This document shows positions 7,010 to 22,379 of a stretch of 23,122 nt of DNA, one piece after another. The notes below the pieces were generated by a model. It saw only the letters and a list, made by a program, of their open reading frames with translations, ran no database searches and was not told the origin of the DNA. Source of the stretch: a virus; the IMG/VR virus record IMGVR_UViG_3300028274_000045, positions 1-23,122 of that record; one strand, 5' to 3'. Numbering within the stretch: the first letter of the stretch is position 1; every line of letters begins with the position of its first letter. Made by a program: the position numbers and the translations under genes.

Positions 7010-7038
7010 ATTATATCATAAAACTTAAAACAATTTAA
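7010..7038 (-). promoter_or_regulatory. Minus-strand promoter of the scaffold-capsid-tail operon
   Basis: Reading the minus strand, a -35-like TTAAAT (7038-7033) lies 17 bases before a perfect TATAAT (7015-7010), which is preceded by TGA, an extended -10 element. Transcription would start near 7003, about 40 bases before the scaffold ATG. It follows directly after the terminator of the packaging/portal unit, so the capsid and tail genes can be expressed independently and more strongly. Confidence 0.7.
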
Positions 7039-7070
7039 GATATAATTAAGTTATATTACAATACAATTAC
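7032..7070 (+). repeat. 39-bp promoter-like repeat, copy A
   Basis: These 39 bases are identical to 22106-22144, 15 kb away in the same orientation; a diverged copy lies at 16653-16690. The element contains TATAAT (7041-7046) and TATATT (7052-7057) 11 bases apart, followed by an ATTAC sequence. The near-palindrome TATAA-TTAAG-TTATA lies at its centre. The other copies stand just before plus-strand genes, which argues for a phage promoter or operator. Here no protein gene follows on the plus strand, only the small-RNA candidate. Confidence 0.7.
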
Positions 7071-7078
7071 TTACTTAC

Positions 7079-7184
7079 TTGACAGTTACTTTGACTAACT
7101 AGATATAAGCATCATGTTTCTCCTTCACACAAGAAACAAAAATAAGACAGAAGGTTACTACCTTTTCTCTCTGTCTTATTTTGT
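7079..7184 (+). ncRNA. Candidate small RNA with its own promoter and terminator
   Basis: On the plus strand a consensus -35 TTGACA (7079-7084) is followed 17-19 bases later by an A+T-rich -10 (GATATAAG, 7102-7109). The predicted transcript, starting near 7115, would fold at once into a 7-bp hairpin (TGTTTCT 7115-7121 with AGAAACA 7132-7138). Its C/U-rich loop region includes TCTCCTTC (7119-7126). A second hairpin follows (AATAAGACAGA 7141-7151 with TCTGTCTTATT 7170-7180) and ends in TTTTG. The result would be about 70 bases without an open reading frame. The promoter-like repeat at 7032 could give a longer form. The C/U-rich loop is complementary to ribosome binding sites such as GAAGGAGA at 22768, but such matches are common by chance. 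Confidence 0.45.
7138..7180 (-). terminator. Terminator of the terminase-portal-MuF unit (probably bidirectional)
   Basis: A perfect 11-bp inverted repeat (7141-7151 and 7170-7180), with a smaller inner AAGGT/ACCTT pairing, overlaps the stop codon at 7176-7178. On the minus strand the stem is followed by TTTTTG, a classic intrinsic terminator. On the plus strand it is followed by TTTTG, so it can also end the candidate small RNA. Confidence 0.85.
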
Positions 7185-7601
7185 ATATTTCCTAATAACT
7201 TTTAAAACTTCCCTACGCATAAGGTTCTTTTCCACTTTATTAACACGCATAAAATCACGACCATAATCAAAAGTATTTCTTGCTGCTTTAGTATCACCAA
7301 GTCCTTGAAAGAATATCCTTGAGCCTAAACCATCTGCATGTCTTCGCCAAACCATCTGCCTCATCATCTTACCTGAGTAAACAAAACGCTCTTTAAGACC
7401 TTTAGAATCTTTATGCCTTTTGTAAGCTGGTGTATACTCTTTAAAAGATGCTCCTGTGTGACTTACATTGTCTTTAACACGAGCTTTAACAGATTGCATC
7501 ACCTGTGTAGTAGAACGAGCAACAGCTGTCTTAACATCTCTAACTATATACTTAGACATCCTGTCAAGAAACTTCTTGCTCCTCTTTGTTTTAATAGTCA
7601 T
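7176..7601 (-). CDS. Virion morphogenesis / head-tail joining protein (putative)
   Basis: A 141-residue very basic protein. The order N-terminal basic helices, a TPAYKRHKDSKGL segment, FVYSGKMMRQMVWRR, then GLGSRIFFQG and a C-terminal GRDFMRVNK resembles the phage virion morphogenesis / gp10-type family. In that family a conserved R-x-TGK(M)-type turn and a GR-x-F(F/M) segment near the C-terminus are typical. Such proteins help to complete the head or join head and tail. The ATG overlaps the MuF gene stop (TAATG). It is the last gene of its transcript, because the terminator hairpin contains its stop codon. Confidence 0.6.
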   Translation of the reverse strand: MTIKTKRSKKFLDRMSKYIVRDVKTAVARSTTQVMQSVKARVKDNVSHTGASFKEYTPAYKRHKDSKGLKERFVYSGKMMRQMVWRRHADGLGSRIFFQGLGDTKAARNTFDYGRDFMRVNKVEKNLMRREVLKVIRKYTK

Positions 7602-8329
7602 TATTTACAAACCCCTGAAGCTTTCTTATAACCATTTTTAATAGCCTCTTCTTCACTAATAGGAAATAAACCATGTCTACAGTTATATCTTCTCTTAGGA
7701 TTAAGCTCAATGGCTATCTTCTGGTCATATGTGAAGTAACCTGCCTGATTTAGTACACACTTACAGAAATCTCTAGTCTTATTATCAACATCTATACCAT
7801 CATAAATCCAAACATCGTTCTTCTTAGCTCTTTCGTTAAGTAGTAGCTGTCTATAATCATTAATAGCTGTCGATACATATGTCTTAGCATAGCTTTTGTA
7901 TCTTGAGCCTTGTAGGTCTTTAGCCATTGCTTTAACAAGGTCCTGCTGAGTAATACCAACCATTATGTGTTTATAAAGACCTTGCTTTAGTTTCAGACCA
8001 GCATCAATACCTATTTTCTCTAATTCTTTAAGCTGAAGCTGTTTTAATAGCTTTAATTTAGTCTTATCAACTGAGCCTTTAGCTATATCTCTAGCAGACT
8101 TATCAATCAGGTCTAATTTAACCACATAATCCTCTAATAACTCATAGAAACCAGCTTTTTGTAGTAATCTTGACCACCTAGAATCCCATTTAGTTAATGT
8201 AGTAGAAGTAAGAAGAAGAATCTCAGCACTTGCTAATAGATAGGCAATAGTGAAGATTTCTTCTAATCTGTCTTCAAATTCATCAGTAAGAGCTTCCATC
8301 TCCTCCTGATTTCTATCAAATAACTCCAT
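7601..8329 (-). CDS. MuF-like head morphogenesis protein
   Basis: A 242-residue protein encoded right after the portal gene, the standard place for MuF/gp7-type minor head proteins. The N-terminal two thirds is helical and charged. The C-terminal domain shows the family signature: WIYDGIDVDNKTRDFC at 174-189, a second Cys two residues later, and NCRH at 216-219. The Cys/His residues probably bind a metal. These proteins enter the head with the portal and may be ejected with the DNA. No toxin domain is attached; the protein stops shortly after the MuF core with GVCK. The ATG lies 2 bases after the portal stop. Confidence 0.8.
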   Translation of the reverse strand: MELFDRNQEEMEALTDEFEDRLEEIFTIAYLLASAEILLLTSTTLTKWDSRWSRLLQKAGFYELLEDYVVKLDLIDKSARDIAKGSVDKTKLKLLKQLQLKELEKIGIDAGLKLKQGLYKHIMVGITQQDLVKAMAKDLQGSRYKSYAKTYVSTAINDYRQLLLNERAKKNDVWIYDGIDVDNKTRDFCKCVLNQAGYFTYDQKIAIELNPKRRYNCRHGLFPISEEEAIKNGYKKASGVCK

Positions 8330-8331
8330 AA

Positions 8332-9666
8332 TTAGTCTTCTATATCGGTTTTAATCTCTATAGAACCTAATTTATTAAGCATATCATTCCTGATTTTAAT
8401 ATTCTCTTCCCAAATACCTTTAGCTTTGTCTAAAGGAATATTTTTGTCTTTAGAAATAATTTCAATCGGGTTTGTAAGACCTAAATCAACTGACCTTGTG
8501 TAAGCATTCAGTTTCTCTTCGTCTCTTTCTTGATAAGCTATCGGATTGAAAGCAATAATAAAGCCATCTTGGAAGTTATTTCCGTACATATTACCTATTT
8601 TAGTAATCAGGGCGTTCAATTCTCTCTCATATAAGACAAAGTCTTTCTGATTCTCTCTAGTAATGTTATCTAAAGACTGATTTTCCATCTTTAAAGCAAA
8701 ACCTGTAGATACCTGACTAGTCATCTTAAATTGTGCTGGTGATATGTTGTAGTTTATAGCAATTTTACTGATTGAAGCATCTAAAACACCTGCTAATTCG
8801 TCTAAATTCGCTTGTAAGTCTAATAACTGGAAGTTCACATCTGTTCCAGACACTGTAATAGCTGAACTAGGGTCTAACATCTGACCATCAATCTCACCAA
8901 CATTCTGTCCTACAACTACAATCTGTTTAAACGACTGCCATTTAATCAGGTAATTCTTGAATGTGTTATAAATAGAGTTATCTAATGTTGTTTCTACTAA
9001 ATCTGTCCCTGAATGCTCATCGAAGAATGTACCATCTCTAAAACCTTTTTGCATAAAGATAAATGGTAAGAAACCAAAGGGGTTAACATCGTCATCATTC
9101 AGTGAATCTTTCTCATACGAACCATCTGTCGCATATTCTCTATAATAATGTTCTGTTTCTGACCAATATGCCCACTTTGTCTTACCTTTTTCTAGGTTTT
9201 CTACAAAATACTCTACTGATTTAGGGTCACCAAACTCATCAAGCTCTACTCTAGTCTTATGAGGGTATCTAAATATCATTTTGGGTCTATTATTAGCTTC
9301 ATCCCACACAACCTGAACTACTAGGTCATTTAGAGCATTTAGATACTTATTCGCCTGTGTCATAAACTGGTCAATTCTTAAATCATCATAGTAGTCAGCT
9401 ACTGTCTGGTCATTTATTTCTCTAACGACACCATTAGTATAAACCTTAGATGTTTTATCAATAATAGATCTAAATACATTATTAGTCATGTCTAATTGCT
9501 TATCCATACCAATCAGTGCTGCTTTATCATAAATATCTTCTAGCCGTGCCTTAGCTTGATACCTATAATTACCTTGATACATGTTGTATCTATCTTTGAA
9601 CTTCTGTTCTCTACTAACTGCTGATGAGTTAGCTTTTCTTGCATCTTTTAAATTTACTGTTGCCAC
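8332..9666 (-). CDS. Portal protein (SPP1 gp6-like)
   Basis: A 444-residue protein between the large terminase and MuF genes. Its start region (KFKDRYNMYQGNYRY) and the segment LIKWQSFKQIVVVGQNVGE, followed later by NYNISPAQFKMTSQVSTGFALKME (written here in parts: NYNISPAQFK, STGFALKM), are typical of portal proteins of the SPP1 gp6 class. The long C-terminal helices (residues about 330-400) would form the stem and crown. The dodecameric portal is the DNA entry channel and the docking site for the terminase. The length agrees with the family. The gene sits 9 bases downstream of the terminase stop. Confidence 0.85.
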   Translation of the reverse strand: MATVNLKDARKANSSAVSREQKFKDRYNMYQGNYRYQAKARLEDIYDKAALIGMDKQLDMTNNVFRSIIDKTSKVYTNGVVREINDQTVADYYDDLRIDQFMTQANKYLNALNDLVVQVVWDEANNRPKMIFRYPHKTRVELDEFGDPKSVEYFVENLEKGKTKWAYWSETEHYYREYATDGSYEKDSLNDDDVNPFGFLPFIFMQKGFRDGTFFDEHSGTDLVETTLDNSIYNTFKNYLIKWQSFKQIVVVGQNVGEIDGQMLDPSSAITVSGTDVNFQLLDLQANLDELAGVLDASISKIAINYNISPAQFKMTSQVSTGFALKMENQSLDNITRENQKDFVLYERELNALITKIGNMYGNNFQDGFIIAFNPIAYQERDEEKLNAYTRSVDLGLTNPIEIISKDKNIPLDKAKGIWEENIKIRNDMLNKLGSIEIKTDIED

Positions 9667-11376: not shown

Positions 11377-11567
11377 ACCGCCCTACTGCGAAAAAACTCC
11401 CATACCCCTAAATATTAAGAAAAAACGCTAAAATAAGAAGGAAATAGGGTAGGGCGTCCAAAATAATTAAATTTTGTATTGGAAACTATAATTTCCAAAC
11501 TATTATTAATAATGCCCTGCTTTGTAAGAGTGGATTTTTTAGGTTATTTTCGCGTGCTTTGATACCC
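11342..11567. other. Non-coding stretch with inverted repeats
   Basis: No credible open reading frame on either strand. An 8-bp inverted repeat CGCCCTAC (11379-11386) / GTAGGGCG (11449-11456) encloses about 60 bases. A 7-bp hairpin TTGGAAA (11479-11485) / TTTCCAA (11492-11498) follows. The parts CCCCTAAA (11405) and AATAGGGTAGGGC (11443-11455) recur in the control region near 13.7 kb. Confidence 0.6.
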
Positions 11568-11714
11568 AAAAAAGCTACAAAAAAGCTACAAAAAAGCTAC
11601 AAAAAAGCTACAAAAAAGCTACAAAAAAGCTACAAAACAATGCTAATCAAATGCTAATCAAATGCTAATCAAATGCTAATCAAATGCTACAAAATAATGC
11701 TAATCAAATGCTAA
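11568..11714. repeat. Phased 11-bp repeat array (A-tract / GCTA iterons)
   Basis: GCTA occurs 13 times, at 11574, 11585, 11596, 11607, 11618, 11629, 11642, 11653, 11664, 11675, 11686, 11699 and 11710. The spacing is 11 bases except for two steps of 13. The first six units are AAAAAAGCTAC; the following ones are mostly AATGCTAATCA. The period matches about one helical turn, so sites lie on one face of the DNA. The A6 tracts in phase should bend the DNA. The array is non-coding (11 is not a multiple of 3). It resembles replication-initiator iterons or terminase/partition binding arrays. Confidence 0.9.
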
Positions 11715-11889
11715 AAGATTACGTTGTTCGCTAATTACATAGAAAGTCTTCTATTGGCTATACAGCATATAAGAGCATCTAAAAAGAGCTTTATATATAT
11801 ATACTTTGTTTACTGTATTAGTAAAAAGTAAGTAATAAAGAAATAAAAGAGCTAGAACACCCCTACAGCAATGCCTAGCACCTGATTAC
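11715..11889. other. Non-coding A+T-rich stretch
   Basis: No open reading frame. GATTACGTT occurs at 11717-11725 and again at 11884-11892; in both places it is followed by CG and TTACAT within about 15 bases, suggesting a diverged repeat. A run of alternating TA at about 11791-11802 would melt easily. Confidence 0.5.
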
Positions 11890-11984: not shown

Positions 11985-12013
11985 GAAAAAGGGTGAGACA
12001 AAAGCCCCACCCT
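11985..12013 (-). terminator. Terminator of the accessory operon
   Basis: AGGGTG (11990-11995) and CACCCT (12008-12013) form a 6-bp GC-rich stem. Read on the minus strand, the stem is followed by a TTTTTC run (11990-11985). It lies 16 bases after the stop of the last accessory micropeptide gene and is well placed to end that operon. Confidence 0.75.
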
Positions 12014-12028
12014 CTTAATAAATATTAG

Positions 12029-12094
12029 CTACCCAAATACGGTTAAAATACCAACTACAACACCTATAATAAATAATAATAACATCCTAATCAT
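12029..12094 (-). CDS. 21-residue hydrophobic membrane micropeptide (putative)
   Basis: ATG 12094-12092, preceded at 8 bases by a GAGGG ribosome binding site inside the end of the 170-residue gene. It encodes MIRM followed by LLLFIIGVVVGILTVFG, essentially one transmembrane helix with a basic residue at its N-terminus. The frame ends in TAG 16 bases before the terminator. Such peptides can insert into the inner membrane and modulate host proteins or act as small holin-like peptides. Support is the ribosome binding site, the operon position and the composition. It is short, so it may be fortuitous. Confidence 0.45.
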   Translation of the reverse strand: MIRMLLLFIIGVVVGILTVFG

Positions 12095-12599
12095 AGTAAT
12101 AACCCTCAGCACAAAATGGATAGCTATCACCCATATATTTAATGATAACATCGCAGCAGCATTCTAGCAGTAAAACCCGACTTTTAAAGATCTCTTCGTA
12201 ACTATATGTAGGGATATAACCATCCTCAGCAGTAGTGACTAATCGAACATGCTCCCTTAATAATTCCTTTAAATCATTTTCTCTAATATATTTTATAATA
12301 GCACCACCCCCAGCAGCAGTACTGACAATCATATAATCCGTTGAATAATTGTAATAGGTTGGACTCACCAAGTCAACAAAAGCCAACTCAACTCCAACCT
12401 CATTACGGAATACTTCCAACAAAGCTTTACAGTAGCCGACTTTAGCTTCATTCCATACTGATATACCAACATCATGAAGCATGTCATGATCCAAGTCCCC
12501 CGAATCTTCATTTATAGCACCAACAGAACACGCAACCGCATATTCTACTAAACTGTCATGTATTGACTCATAGAAACCCCCAAAATTAAATTTAATCAT
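12087..12599 (-). CDS. Acidic accessory protein, unknown function (170 aa)
   Basis: A 170-residue protein with about 28 acidic against about 11 basic residues. The N-terminus FNFGGFYESIHDSLVEYAV, a central SPTYYNYSTDYMIV segment and a C-terminal triple cysteine (147-149) followed by an aromatic/acidic end (GYYYD) are its notable parts. I recognise the general look of proteins encoded on phages and plasmids but cannot name a family or function. Strong negative charge and early-operon position would fit a DNA mimic or an inhibitor of host defence; that is inference. It overlaps the preceding 123-residue gene by 8 bases, so the two are probably translated together. Confidence 0.75.
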   Translation of the reverse strand: MIKFNFGGFYESIHDSLVEYAVACSVGAINEDSGDLDHDMLHDVGISVWNEAKVGYCKALLEVFRNEVGVELAFVDLVSPTYYNYSTDYMIVSTAAGGGAIIKYIRENDLKELLREHVRLVTTAEDGYIPTYSYEEIFKSRVLLLECCCDVIIKYMGDSYPFCAEGYYYD

Positions 12600-12963
12600 C
12601 CAACGCCCCTAAATATTCCACCATGCTATCAATGCATTCATTCACATATTTACTATAATAAAAATATTGGCCTAATTGTATAGCCCCGTGATAATCAAAT
12701 TTATCGGGCGTACCAAACTCATCTATAGCCTCTTCAATATAACCATAATTATCTACCGCCCACTTCCTTAAATCATAGTTGTAAATATCAATCAAACTGT
12801 TAACAATTTCATCGACACCCCCCGAGTCGTTGACACCATCTCCTAACCACTCTTTAAGGTCTTCAAACTCTTGATATTCTAGTACCTCAATCACTTGATC
12901 TTTATAATCGCCCTCAAAATCTTTAAATATCTCTCTTAAATCACTATTATTATTTATTATCAT
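12592..12963 (-). CDS. Very acidic accessory protein, possible DNA mimic (123 aa)
   Basis: A 123-residue protein with 17 Asp and 13 Glu against 8 Lys/Arg, giving a net charge of about -22, plus many Tyr and Trp. Sequence blocks include DLREIFKDFEG, EFEDLKEWLGDGV, LIDIYNYDLRKWAVDNYGY and EEAIDEFG. Proteins of this size and charge, encoded early by phages, include DNA-mimic inhibitors of restriction enzymes and other DNA-binding proteins. I see no specific ArdA or Ocr motif, so this is a hypothesis only. It overlaps the 170-residue gene by 8 bases and follows the 107-residue gene after 16 bases. Confidence 0.75.
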   Translation of the reverse strand: MIINNNSDLREIFKDFEGDYKDQVIEVLEYQEFEDLKEWLGDGVNDSGGVDEIVNSLIDIYNYDLRKWAVDNYGYIEEAIDEFGTPDKFDYHGAIQLGQYFYYSKYVNECIDSMVEYLGALDD

Positions 12964-12979
12964 TTTTATACCTTTGTTA

Positions 12980-13303
12980 CTAATTGTTTTCTATAGCATA
13001 CATTAAAATGCAGTTATCATTTGTAGCTATAATATATACACCCTTATGTTTAAATACTTTACCGTTTAAATCAAGTCTTGACTCTATGGCTTTACCATCT
13101 ATAGTAAATGAAGACTTAATAATATTGCTATTATTATTTGATCTAGCAATTCTATCGTAGTTGATATTAGGCCTTATGGTTTCTATTTGTTTATCTAGTA
13201 GCTCGATCGTAGCTTCAACAGTCGTATTAAACTTACTACCTAATAATGCACTTTTGTTATTGATAAGTAGTGACTTAAACTCTTTTAGTGTGATTTTATT
13301 CAT
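12980..13303 (-). CDS. Accessory protein, unknown (107 aa)
   Basis: A 107-residue protein. The N-terminal half is helical (ITLKEFKSLLINNKSALLG, then EATIELLDKQIETI). An Asn-rich linker (ARSNNNSN) leads to a C-terminal part of beta-strands (IIKSSFTIDG, VFKHKGVYIIAT, CILMYAIENN). No family recognised. An AAAAGGAAT ribosome binding site precedes the ATG. It is the third gene of the accessory operon. Confidence 0.7.
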   Translation of the reverse strand: MNKITLKEFKSLLINNKSALLGSKFNTTVEATIELLDKQIETIRPNINYDRIARSNNNSNIIKSSFTIDGKAIESRLDLNGKVFKHKGVYIIATNDNCILMYAIENN

Positions 13304-13313
13304 GTTATTCCTT

Positions 13314-13490
13314 TTATTTTTGTATCATTTCTTTAGTATTAGCATTCATGTTATTTACTTCTTTACTTCTAACTAACATATCATTAATTACATCTATCAA
13401 TAAATGATTTAAGTAATCTAAATAAAATAATTCACAATAAAGCATTTCGTCTCTTATTAGTGTCTCGAGTGTTTTGTTAGTTAAATTCAT
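13314..13490 (-). CDS. Small accessory protein, unknown (58 aa)
   Basis: ATG 13490-13488 with AAAGGG upstream; stop TAA at 13316-13314, about 10 bases before the next gene. The product begins MNLTNKTLETLIRDEMLYCE and is predicted helical throughout, with a hydrophobic/aromatic middle (LFYLDYLNHLLIDVI) and a polar end. It overlaps the upstream membrane peptide gene by 14 bases. No family recognised. Operon fit and ribosome binding site support it. Confidence 0.6.
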   Translation of the reverse strand: MNLTNKTLETLIRDEMLYCELFYLDYLNHLLIDVINDMLVRSKEVNNMNANTKEMIQK

Positions 13491-13608
13491 TTTTATACCC
13501 TTTTAATGTCTCTTTTTTTGTTAATCCTGTAATAGCACACCTATCATCACCAACTAAAATAATTCCTAATATAGAAATTATAATACCTATTAGTAAAACT
13601 TCAACCAT
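13477..13608 (-). CDS. 43-residue single-pass membrane peptide
   Basis: ATG 13608-13606 with a strong AAGGAG ribosome binding site. Residues 3-19 (EVLLIGIIISILGIILV) form one transmembrane helix. They are followed by GDDRC and a short basic cytoplasmic-looking tail (KKETLKGYKNEFN). It is the first gene after the consensus promoter at 13639-13667, so it is probably made very early and abundantly. Function unknown. Candidates include a membrane-targeted host modulator or superinfection-exclusion peptide. Confidence 0.65.
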   Translation of the reverse strand: MVEVLLIGIIISILGIILVGDDRCAITGLTKKETLKGYKNEFN

Positions 13609-13638
13609 GTTAACTCCTTCAAAATTAAATGTAACCGT

Positions 13639-13667
13639 ATTATAATATAATATTAATATATTGTCAA
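13639..13667 (-). promoter_or_regulatory. Perfect sigma-70 promoter of the accessory operon
   Basis: Reading the minus strand, TTGACA (13667-13662) is followed after exactly 17 bases by TATAAT (13644-13639). No other promoter in the window matches both hexamers at optimal spacing. It drives the 43-, 58-, 107-, 123-, 170- and 21-residue frames to the terminator at 11985. Such a promoter would be recognised immediately by host RNA polymerase after infection, or constitutively in a prophage. Confidence 0.85.
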
Positions 13668-13968
13668 TACTTTATTAAAAGAATTTTATAATTTGTTGTT
13701 GTATAACATTTAAACCCCTAAAAAGCATATACAATAGGGTAGGGTAGGGCATAATCACTATTTTTTGTTAAATTTTGGCATTTTTCACTCTTTTTTACAT
13801 TTTTCGTGAAATTTTTCGTGAAATTTTTTATATAAAGTTTGTCGAGTCCATTTTATAAAACCCCTCGAGTCCTGTCGGGTTCATTTTATAAAACCCCTCG
13901 AGTCCTTTAATAACTCTTTAAGCTATACTTCTATAGAATTACACTCTTACAAAATAAAAAGGATAAAA
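13668..13968. promoter_or_regulatory. Divergent control region between accessory and replication operons
   Basis: About 300 bases without a gene. It holds a telomere-like GGGTAGGGTAGGG (13737-13749), two TTTTTCGTGAAA-type units around 13801-13826, the two 33-bp tandem repeats at 13841-13906, and -10-like sequences TATACT (13924-13929) and TATAGAAT (13932-13939) before the first replication gene. No clear -35 accompanies these, so the plus-strand promoter may need an activator or be controlled through the repeats. Confidence 0.55.
13841..13906 (+). repeat. Two 33-bp tandem repeats, probable operator
   Basis: Units 13841-13873 and 13874-13906 differ at only two positions. Each carries ATTTTATAAAACCCC, flanked by TCGAGTCC-type half sites at 13842, 13865, 13875 (variant TCGGGTTC) and 13898, spaced 23, 10 and 23 bases. 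The repeats end about 60 bases before a gene for a ribbon-helix-helix protein. That protein class typically binds tandem half-sites about one helical turn apart and represses its own promoter. Confidence 0.75.
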
Positions 13969-14085
13969 ATGAAATCAATACAAGTACCATATGAAGTATG
14001 GAAGCAGTTAAAACAGTTAGCATTAGATAAGGACACAACAATAGCAGGTGTTATAGCATCACTATTAGAGCAAAACAATGACTAA
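13969..14085 (+). CDS. Ribbon-helix-helix (Arc/CopG-type) regulator, 38 aa
   Basis: ATG 13969, with AAGGAT just upstream; TAA at 14083-14085, overlapping the primase gene start by 8 bases. The product is a minimal ribbon-helix-helix protein. A strand KSIQVP (2-7) would pair with its partner in the dimer and enter the major groove. Helix A is YEVWKQLKQLALDKD (8-22) and helix B TTIAGVIASLLEQ (23-35). The pattern of polar residue, hydrophobic residue, Pro, then a Leu-rich helix is characteristic. It is the first gene of the replication operon and stands next to the 33-bp repeats, so autoregulation is likely. At 38 residues it is near the lower size limit of the family. Confidence 0.8.
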   Translation: MKSIQVPYEVWKQLKQLALDKDTTIAGVIASLLEQNND

Positions 14086-21823: not shown

Positions 21824-22107
21824 AAGAACAAGACATACAAAAGAAGATAACTAAGTATCTGGAGAAACGAGATGCTTATGTAGTTAAGATTGTAACAGCT
21901 AGTAAAGCAGGAGTACCTGACATTTTAGCTTGTTACAAAGGCGTGTTTATGGGTATTGAGGTTAAGAAACCTGATACTAAGAAGAACACATCTAAGTTAC
22001 AAGACTACAACCTAAGAGCCATTATTGAGGCTGAAGGTTTTAGCACAGTTGCAGCATCTGTAGAAGATGTTGAAGAATTTTTAGAGTTTATAGACCAGAT
22101 TAGATAA
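21820..22107 (+). CDS. VRR-NUC domain nuclease lacking a standard start codon
   Basis: From 21796 to 22107 one frame is open and encodes a full VRR-NUC domain. It has an N-terminal helix KEQDIQKKITKYLEK, then KIVTASKAGVPDILACYKG and MGIEVKKPDTKKNTSKLQDY. The catalytic set is Glu3, Asp34 (in GVPD), Glu47 and Lys49 (in EVK), and Gln61. No ATG, GTG or TTG lies upstream of the catalytic residues. The best start is ATA at 21820, 5 bases after AAAGGA. It overlaps the helicase TAA as ATAA, where neighbouring junctions have ATGA; ATT at 21817 or 21814 are alternatives. That gives 95 residues. This family cuts branched DNA or Holliday junctions. The domain is certain; the start is not. Confidence 0.78.
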   Translation: MKEQDIQKKITKYLEKRDAYVVKIVTASKAGVPDILACYKGVFMGIEVKKPDTKKNTSKLQDYNLRAIIEAEGFSTVAASVEDVEEFLEFIDQIR

Positions 22108-22144
22108 TTTAAGATATAATTAAGTTATATTACAATACAATTAC
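22106..22144 (+). promoter_or_regulatory. Promoter-like repeat, copy B (39 bp identical to 7032-7070)
   Basis: The repeat begins within the stop codon of the nuclease gene. It contains TATAAT (22115-22120) and TATATT (22126-22131), then ACAATTACATC, and ends about 20 bases before the ATG at 22164, with AAAGGA between. It probably provides independent expression of the coiled-coil and HTH genes. Confidence 0.65.
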
Positions 22145-22163: not shown

Positions 22164-22379
22164 ATGACAACAGAAGAAATACAACAACTAGAAGTAGACG
22201 CATTAGAGCTACTGATTAAAGAAAGAGATGAAGAGATTATGACTCTTGAAGACTGTATTGATACTCTACAAGTAGACCTTAGAGAAGCTAATCTTTTAAG
22301 ATTGACTGAGTCTAATGAGCAGACAGTTAGATTAGCGGAGTTAGCTAAGAGAATTAATGTAGTTCTAGGTGATTACTAA
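22164..22379 (+). CDS. Small coiled-coil protein (71 aa)
   Basis: A 71-residue acidic protein that is almost entirely helical with heptad spacing of Leu/Ile: EEIQQLEVDALELLIKE, then ITLED-type repeats to LREANLLRLTE and a final helix LAELAKRINVVLGDY. It is likely to form a dimeric coiled coil. Its stop TAA at 22377-22379 overlaps the next ATG (TAATG). A partner or antagonist of the adjacent HTH protein is possible, but no family is recognised. Confidence 0.75.
   Translation: MTTEEIQQLEVDALELLIKERDEEIMTLEDCIDTLQVDLREANLLRLTESNEQTVRLAELAKRINVVLGDY

Follow-up and report, generated by a model that had tools for sequence, protein, structure and literature searches.

A probable Ocr-type anti-restriction protein encoded in a compact operon of an environmental phage

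Introduction

Phage T7 is protected from type I restriction by its Ocr protein, a DNA mimic, which blocks BREX as well and binds BrxX (PMC7261183). Ocr is described as a homodimer with 116 residues, 34 acidic and six basic, in each monomer, and the dimer resembles a bent DNA of 24 bp (PMC4872106). DNA mimics are reported to vary in the inhibition they exert from one system to another (PMC10149784). Proteins annotated as "ocr-like anti-restriction" are also found in the records of Bastillevirinae, here the Bacillus phages Mater, Moonbeam, phiAGATE, Bobb and Bp8p-C, with the gene of Mater lying within the terminal repeat; we know of no experimental test of these proteins. An anti-restriction role is likewise known for ArdA and for ArdB/KlcA, and the KlcA/ArdB genes of genomic islands have RadC-like genes in their neighborhood.

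Here we analyzed a stretch of viral DNA of 23,122 bases (G+C 34%) from an IMG/VR virus record, hereafter the window, in which an operon of six small genes encodes two acidic proteins, of 123 and 170 residues. The 123-residue protein resembles T7 Ocr (gene 0.3) in size (117 aa in T7), in its strong acidity (30 D+E and 8 K+R, compared with 34 and 6 in T7), in a profile-profile match of its family to Ocr over 86-89 columns, and in being the product of a small gene that is read from a host-type promoter. It differs from T7 Ocr in that the two are only ~15% identical in the aligned part and give no direct BLAST match, in that the window protein is less acidic (-22 versus -28) with a shorter acidic C-terminus, and in that its gene is the fourth of its operon, carried by a small phage that has a tape-measure gene and encodes a family A DNA polymerase of its own. 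The Bastillevirinae proteins give the strongest profile match to the window family but are longer (165-177 aa), with an extra C-terminal part. ArdA and ArdB share the anti-restriction role that we propose for the operon, but neither acidic protein of the window matches an ArdA or ArdB Pfam model at E ≤ 1 and, for ArdA, none of the 18 relatives of the 123-residue protein does so at E ≤ 0.1, results which concern sequence and not fold.

Results

Organization of the operon

The genes for terminase, major head and tape-measure proteins lie on the minus strand of the window, while those for primase, single-strand-binding protein, DNA polymerase A, exonuclease and helicase lie on the plus strand. 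The operon sits on the minus strand between this virion half and the replication half and is oriented away from the replication genes; its features, in the order in which they would be transcribed, are as follows.

13639..13667, minus strand: sigma-70 consensus promoter, TTGACA-N17-TATAAT, the sole 12-of-12 site in the window
13477-13608, minus strand: 43-residue peptide with a hydrophobic N-terminal half (GRAVY 0.69), preceded by AAGGAG
13314-13490, minus strand: 58-residue protein, mildly acidic (net -3)
12980-13303, minus strand: 107-residue protein, basic (pI 9.3, net +4)
12592-12963, minus strand: 123-residue protein assigned to the Ocr family (30 D+E, 8 K+R, net -22, pI 4.05)
12087-12599, minus strand: 170-residue acidic protein (net -16, pI 4.43)
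12029-12094, minus strand: putative 21-residue hydrophobic frame, overlapping the end of the 170-residue gene
11987..12016, minus strand: intrinsic terminator, a 13-pair hairpin followed by a T-run

The promoter is notable but by itself not decisive against chance: the chance expectation is 0.053 such sites per window (150 first-order simulations), and a 12-of-12 site was present in 7 of 100 shuffled windows when spacers of 15-19 were permitted. Its weight as evidence comes mainly from its position, with a ribosome site (AAGGAG) and the ATG of the first frame 30 nt downstream. Three pairs of frames overlap (43/58, 123/170 and 170/21), the remaining gaps being 10 and 16 nt, and the unit closes on a hairpin whose stability of -19.9 kcal/mol (z -5.6) was equaled in none of 200 shuffles. 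The region is most likely a single transcription unit for the host RNA polymerase, read from the consensus sigma-70 promoter. A host-polymerase promoter and a terminator of its own are both present, as in immediate-early phage operons, and we infer such timing here.

The anatomy is thus largely as an earlier note on this DNA had it. The perfect promoter stands at 13667-13639 on the minus strand, the six small frames opposite to the replication genes are there and tightly packed, the terminator is a strong hairpin at 11987-12016, just beyond the range of 12029-13667 that had been given for the operon, and the charge of about -22 quoted for the 123-residue protein agrees with the computed net value of -22. 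"Very acidic", which had been said of the unassigned products, fits only two of the six (123 and 170 aa) because the 107-residue protein is basic and the 58-residue protein has a net charge of merely -3. Family searches with the 58-residue protein gave no match, and relatives of the 107-residue protein were found neither by tblastn in phages nor by peptide patterns in viral contigs. The 43-residue peptide is probably located in the membrane, judging from its hydrophobic half.

Genome context and control region

A megablast search of the window against the phage collection gave no match, as did the same search with one related contig (L004). The terminase is ~40% identical to its best matches, with Caulobacter phage DMCA and Kagunavirus among the matches listed. 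Three contigs from other metagenomes (L004, L005 and L006) match the right part of the window at 99.8-99.9% identity, from positions 13422, 17949 and 18633, respectively; as L004 and L006 run ~3 and 3.7 kb past its right end, the window is shorter than the genome of the phage. Within the structural region, the minus-strand frames 8332-9666, 7601-8329 and 483-1409 are without a PHROG match, and the frames without such a match include one of 444 residues that lies beside the terminase, at the place expected of a portal protein. An Rfam scan of the window gave no match and a tRNA search found none.

Exact copies of the promoter core of the operon, TTATATTAYAATACRRTTAC, are present at 7051-7070 and 22125-22144; since the pattern was derived from these sites, the estimate of its chance occurrence is not an independent one. 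These copies are contained in an exact 39-nt direct repeat (7032-7070 and 22106-22144), the second copy of which precedes an ORF at 22164. At 7070-7190 on the plus strand, the promoter-like core is followed by a stable hairpin and a T-run (z -3.5, with none of 200 shuffles as stable); this region, partly antisense to the end of ORF 7176-7601, possibly encodes a short RNA.

In the divergent intergenic region, a 38-residue Arc-like frame (13969-14085, plus strand; phrog_2639, E 0.002) heads the replication genes, with two 33-bp direct repeats (13840-13905) just before it. The repeats and the Arc-like protein may be operators and their repressor, which would make the latter a candidate regulator of the shared control region. 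On the other side, in the stretch from the operon terminator to the terminase genes, an array of 11-bp direct repeats (11567-11720), first of the CAAAAAAGCTA type and then of the AATCAAATGCT type, is iteron-like and possibly marks an origin or a packaging site.

Relationship of the 123-residue protein to Ocr

The 123-residue protein matches phrog_2568, "ocr-like anti-restriction", at E 1.2e-4. T7 Ocr (record NC_001604) belongs to the same PHROG (E 2.5e-57), which was matched at E ≤ 0.01 by all 18 aligned relatives, the window protein counted (best 7.4e-11). A viral contig (L002) encodes a protein 63% identical to the core of the window protein, and 21 loci were reached from it, encoding proteins of 103-173 aa with charges of -16 to -22 as extracted. 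Acidity is conserved: net charge runs from -16 to -23 across the 18 aligned family members, compared with -21 to -37 in eight T7-type Ocr proteins.

The family profile was compared with alignments of these eight Ocr proteins of T7-like phages and of the five Bastillevirinae Ocr-like proteins. The match to the T7-type group reached a probability of 77.9% (E 1.8e-5, 89 columns; 81.2% with other settings) and that to the Bastillevirinae group 96.3% (E 1.6e-9, 64 columns), while the latter two groups matched each other at 92.3%; all three align in one register. Shuffling the columns, which keeps composition, gave a best score of 23.1 in 200 trials for the T7-type profile versus the real 35.8, and of 17.6 in 100 trials for the Bastillevirinae profile versus the real 64.4. 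As a control, the acidic family of the 170-residue protein scored 0.4% against the Ocr-like family. The window family and T7-type Ocr are both acidic at 14 of 86 aligned columns, and the correlation of shared acidity is 0.53 (reached in 0 of 5000 permutations), a value that is partly circular in that the alignment rewards acidic pairs.

Searches of 10,956 open frames from 129 sequences gave a consistent picture. The T7-type profile alone produced 25 matches, all of Ocr-type or window-type proteins and including L002 at 2.3e-6; the window protein itself was not reached at E 0.01 with this profile, and was recovered at 2.3e-6 with the Bastillevirinae profile. None of the 10,956 reversed frames matched any of the profiles at E ≤ 1. 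Likewise, none of 10,800 shuffled family members matched the T7-type profile at E ≤ 1, and three of them matched the Bastillevirinae profile (best 2.5e-4), so acidity alone can yield weak scores.

The link between the window protein and T7 Ocr is, by these comparisons, indirect: L002 with its kin and the Bastillevirinae group form the intermediate steps. Direct BLAST of the 123-residue protein against T7 Ocr gave no match, the family profile reached only 8.6% against T7 Ocr as a single sequence, and a PDB profile search with the family returned nothing significant, Ocr included. The structure model computed from the single sequence has a pLDDT of 42. Taken together, the profile evidence identifies the 123-residue protein as a divergent, remote homologue of the T7 Ocr family.

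Proposed role of the 123-residue protein

The most economical reading of this relationship would give the 123-residue protein the same role as T7 Ocr, and we consider it probable that the protein counters restriction as a DNA mimic of the Ocr type. The product, small, very acidic, probably helical and probably dimeric, would present a DNA-like surface, with which it could fill the groove where type I restriction-modification enzymes, and possibly BREX methyltransferase complexes, bind DNA. The incoming, unmodified genome would thereby be shielded from restriction.

An alternative in which the Ocr ancestry and the acidic surface are retained and the target is a different one, such as the RecBCD nuclease (as for T7 gp5.9), another nuclease-type defense, or a host nucleoid or transcription protein, appears unlikely. 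Three of the 18 relatives give a weak Pfam match to T7 gp5.9 (PF25708; best E 0.035), identity to T7 Ocr is as low as ~15% in the aligned part, and the inhibition exerted by DNA mimics is reported to vary by system (PMC10149784). The matches to Ocr are, however, far stronger than those to gp5.9, and gp5.9 is not matched by the window protein itself.

The 170-residue acidic family

Distant relatives of the 170-residue protein were found by tblastn in phages of Thiohalocapsa, Curvibacter and Acinetobacter. Those of Thiohalocapsa phage LS06-2018-MD03, Curvibacter phage PCA1 and Acinetobacter phage TaPaz share the motifs GFYxSxH and SPxxYNxxTD with the window protein, from which they differ in being only 23-31% identical to it, and all are annotated as hypothetical proteins. 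A pattern search with the window protein alone found no relatives, whereas a search with a four-sequence alignment led to at least 137 viral contigs with the family confirmed by tblastn (80 of these were retained), and one with a 43-sequence alignment to 16 bacterial contigs, from Rhodanobacter to Bacteroidales. No member was found in plasmids with one family member (L105) as the query. Ten positions are invariant in the 43 sequences (F6, G8, F9, Y10, P80, Y83, N84, T87, D88 and G127).

The 170-residue protein has no Pfam or NCBIfam match. It matches phrog_8431 at E 0.011, and one of the four members of the four-sequence alignment does so at 6.5e-4; a literature search by sequence motif or PHROG number returned no mention within that library and those terms. 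An AlphaFold2 model built from 48 sequences (pLDDT 90.2, pTM 0.84) has an alpha/beta fold. None of 155 Foldseek matches to the PDB reached E ≤ 0.001 (best 0.55), and among viral models Foldseek gave seven matches, five to uncharacterized phage proteins and two without a name. The best Z in a second fold search (VIA-align) was 4.3 among 970 chains compared, and a PDB profile search with the 43-sequence profile found no solved relative. A weak or missing fold match does not prove that the predicted fold is new. Pieces of trigger factor and Hsp70 among the fold matches were judged to be common arrangements. Legionella Lpg0189/NttE, the subject of PMC7325957, was considered as a relative on a match at E 0.0015 with the four-sequence profile, and was dropped because this match vanished with the 43-sequence profile (none to E 10).

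In the three named phages, the family gene lies among other small genes for hypothetical proteins, close to the ends of the record or next to terminase genes. A RadC-like gene stands immediately before the family gene in four of the 16 bacterial loci (three from Rhodanobacter, one from Dyella), a likeness to ArdB/KlcA; the Pfam RadC model was confirmed on one of these neighbors (L137), the others (L133, L135 and L138) being judged by eye. Of 425 neighbors listed (303 from viral or phage loci and 122 from bacterial loci), 68 were scanned together with two window proteins, and these tallies, which also include DUF1281, DUF7249 and TreK-type genes, are not a fair sample because the 68 were hand-picked by eye. 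The neighbors fit an accessory, host-directed role without naming a target. Besides the window, none of the loci fetched up to the profile search carries both the 123-residue and the 170-residue families.

The strongly negative charge of the family (-8 or below in 42 of the 43 members, mean -19) might suggest that the 170-residue protein is a second DNA mimic, a reading that we regard as improbable. The window member has a GRAVY of ~0, the family is unrelated to the Ocr-like family by profile, and the predicted alpha/beta fold carries the invariant FxGFY, SP..YN..TD and G positions, which are more usual at a site of binding or catalysis than on a charged surface. More speculatively, the family may constitute an unrecognized and widespread class of phage counter-defense proteins that disable a defense enzyme through a GFYxSxH/SPxxYNxxTD site and not by DNA mimicry. 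It is similarly tentative to connect with such a role the fold without a listed solved relative and the pairing with an Ocr-family mimic or a RadC-like gene.

Discussion

The overall reading that we favor, and regard as likely on the basis of sequence comparison, is that of an early cassette driven by the host polymerase, whose 123-residue protein would block type I restriction, and perhaps BREX, by imitating DNA. The cassette would serve host takeover and counter-defense soon after DNA entry, with the 170-residue product probably a second host-directed factor and the two hydrophobic peptides (43 and 21 aa) perhaps acting at the membrane.

These two peptides could instead suggest that the operon is not early and that it acts through them in lysis control, superinfection exclusion or late regulation; we consider this quite improbable, since a consensus host promoter and an own terminator set the operon apart from the virion and replication units and an Ocr homologue lies within it. 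That the likeness to Ocr reflects nothing but the acidity shared by unrelated small helical proteins is very improbable indeed, for despite the missing BLAST match to T7 Ocr and the three shuffled members that weakly matched one profile, no column-shuffled profile (0 of 200 and 0 of 100) reached the real scores, no shuffled member with the T7-type profile and no reversed frame with any profile gave a match at E ≤ 1, the unrelated acidic family scored just 0.4%, and the three Ocr-type groups align in one register.

With the early, Ocr-type anti-restriction cassette as the preferred reading, some of what had been said about the locus changes. The earlier note held that no product matches a nameable family, which is wrong for the 123-residue protein given phrog_2568 and the profile match to Ocr. 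The suggestion that acidic proteins of the operon act as DNA mimics or anti-defense factors gains support for this protein from its homology to T7 Ocr, and finds none for the 170-residue protein, which has a predicted alpha/beta fold of its own, strictly conserved aromatic and polar motifs and no profile relation to the Ocr-like family. The operon is also less of a "prime place" for an undescribed function than claimed, because the 123-residue protein, one of the two acidic products, is of a kind that has been well studied; the more novel part of the cassette is the member of the unexplained, widespread 170-residue family.

These results add proteins of environmental phages to the Ocr family, which has been studied for the most part in T7-like phages, and the profile bridge between the T7, Bacillus and environmental types allows further relatives of Ocr to be found. 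At the same time, they bring forward a large, uncharacterized phage family, directly testable against defense systems, whose fold is predicted with confidence and in which certain residues are strictly conserved.
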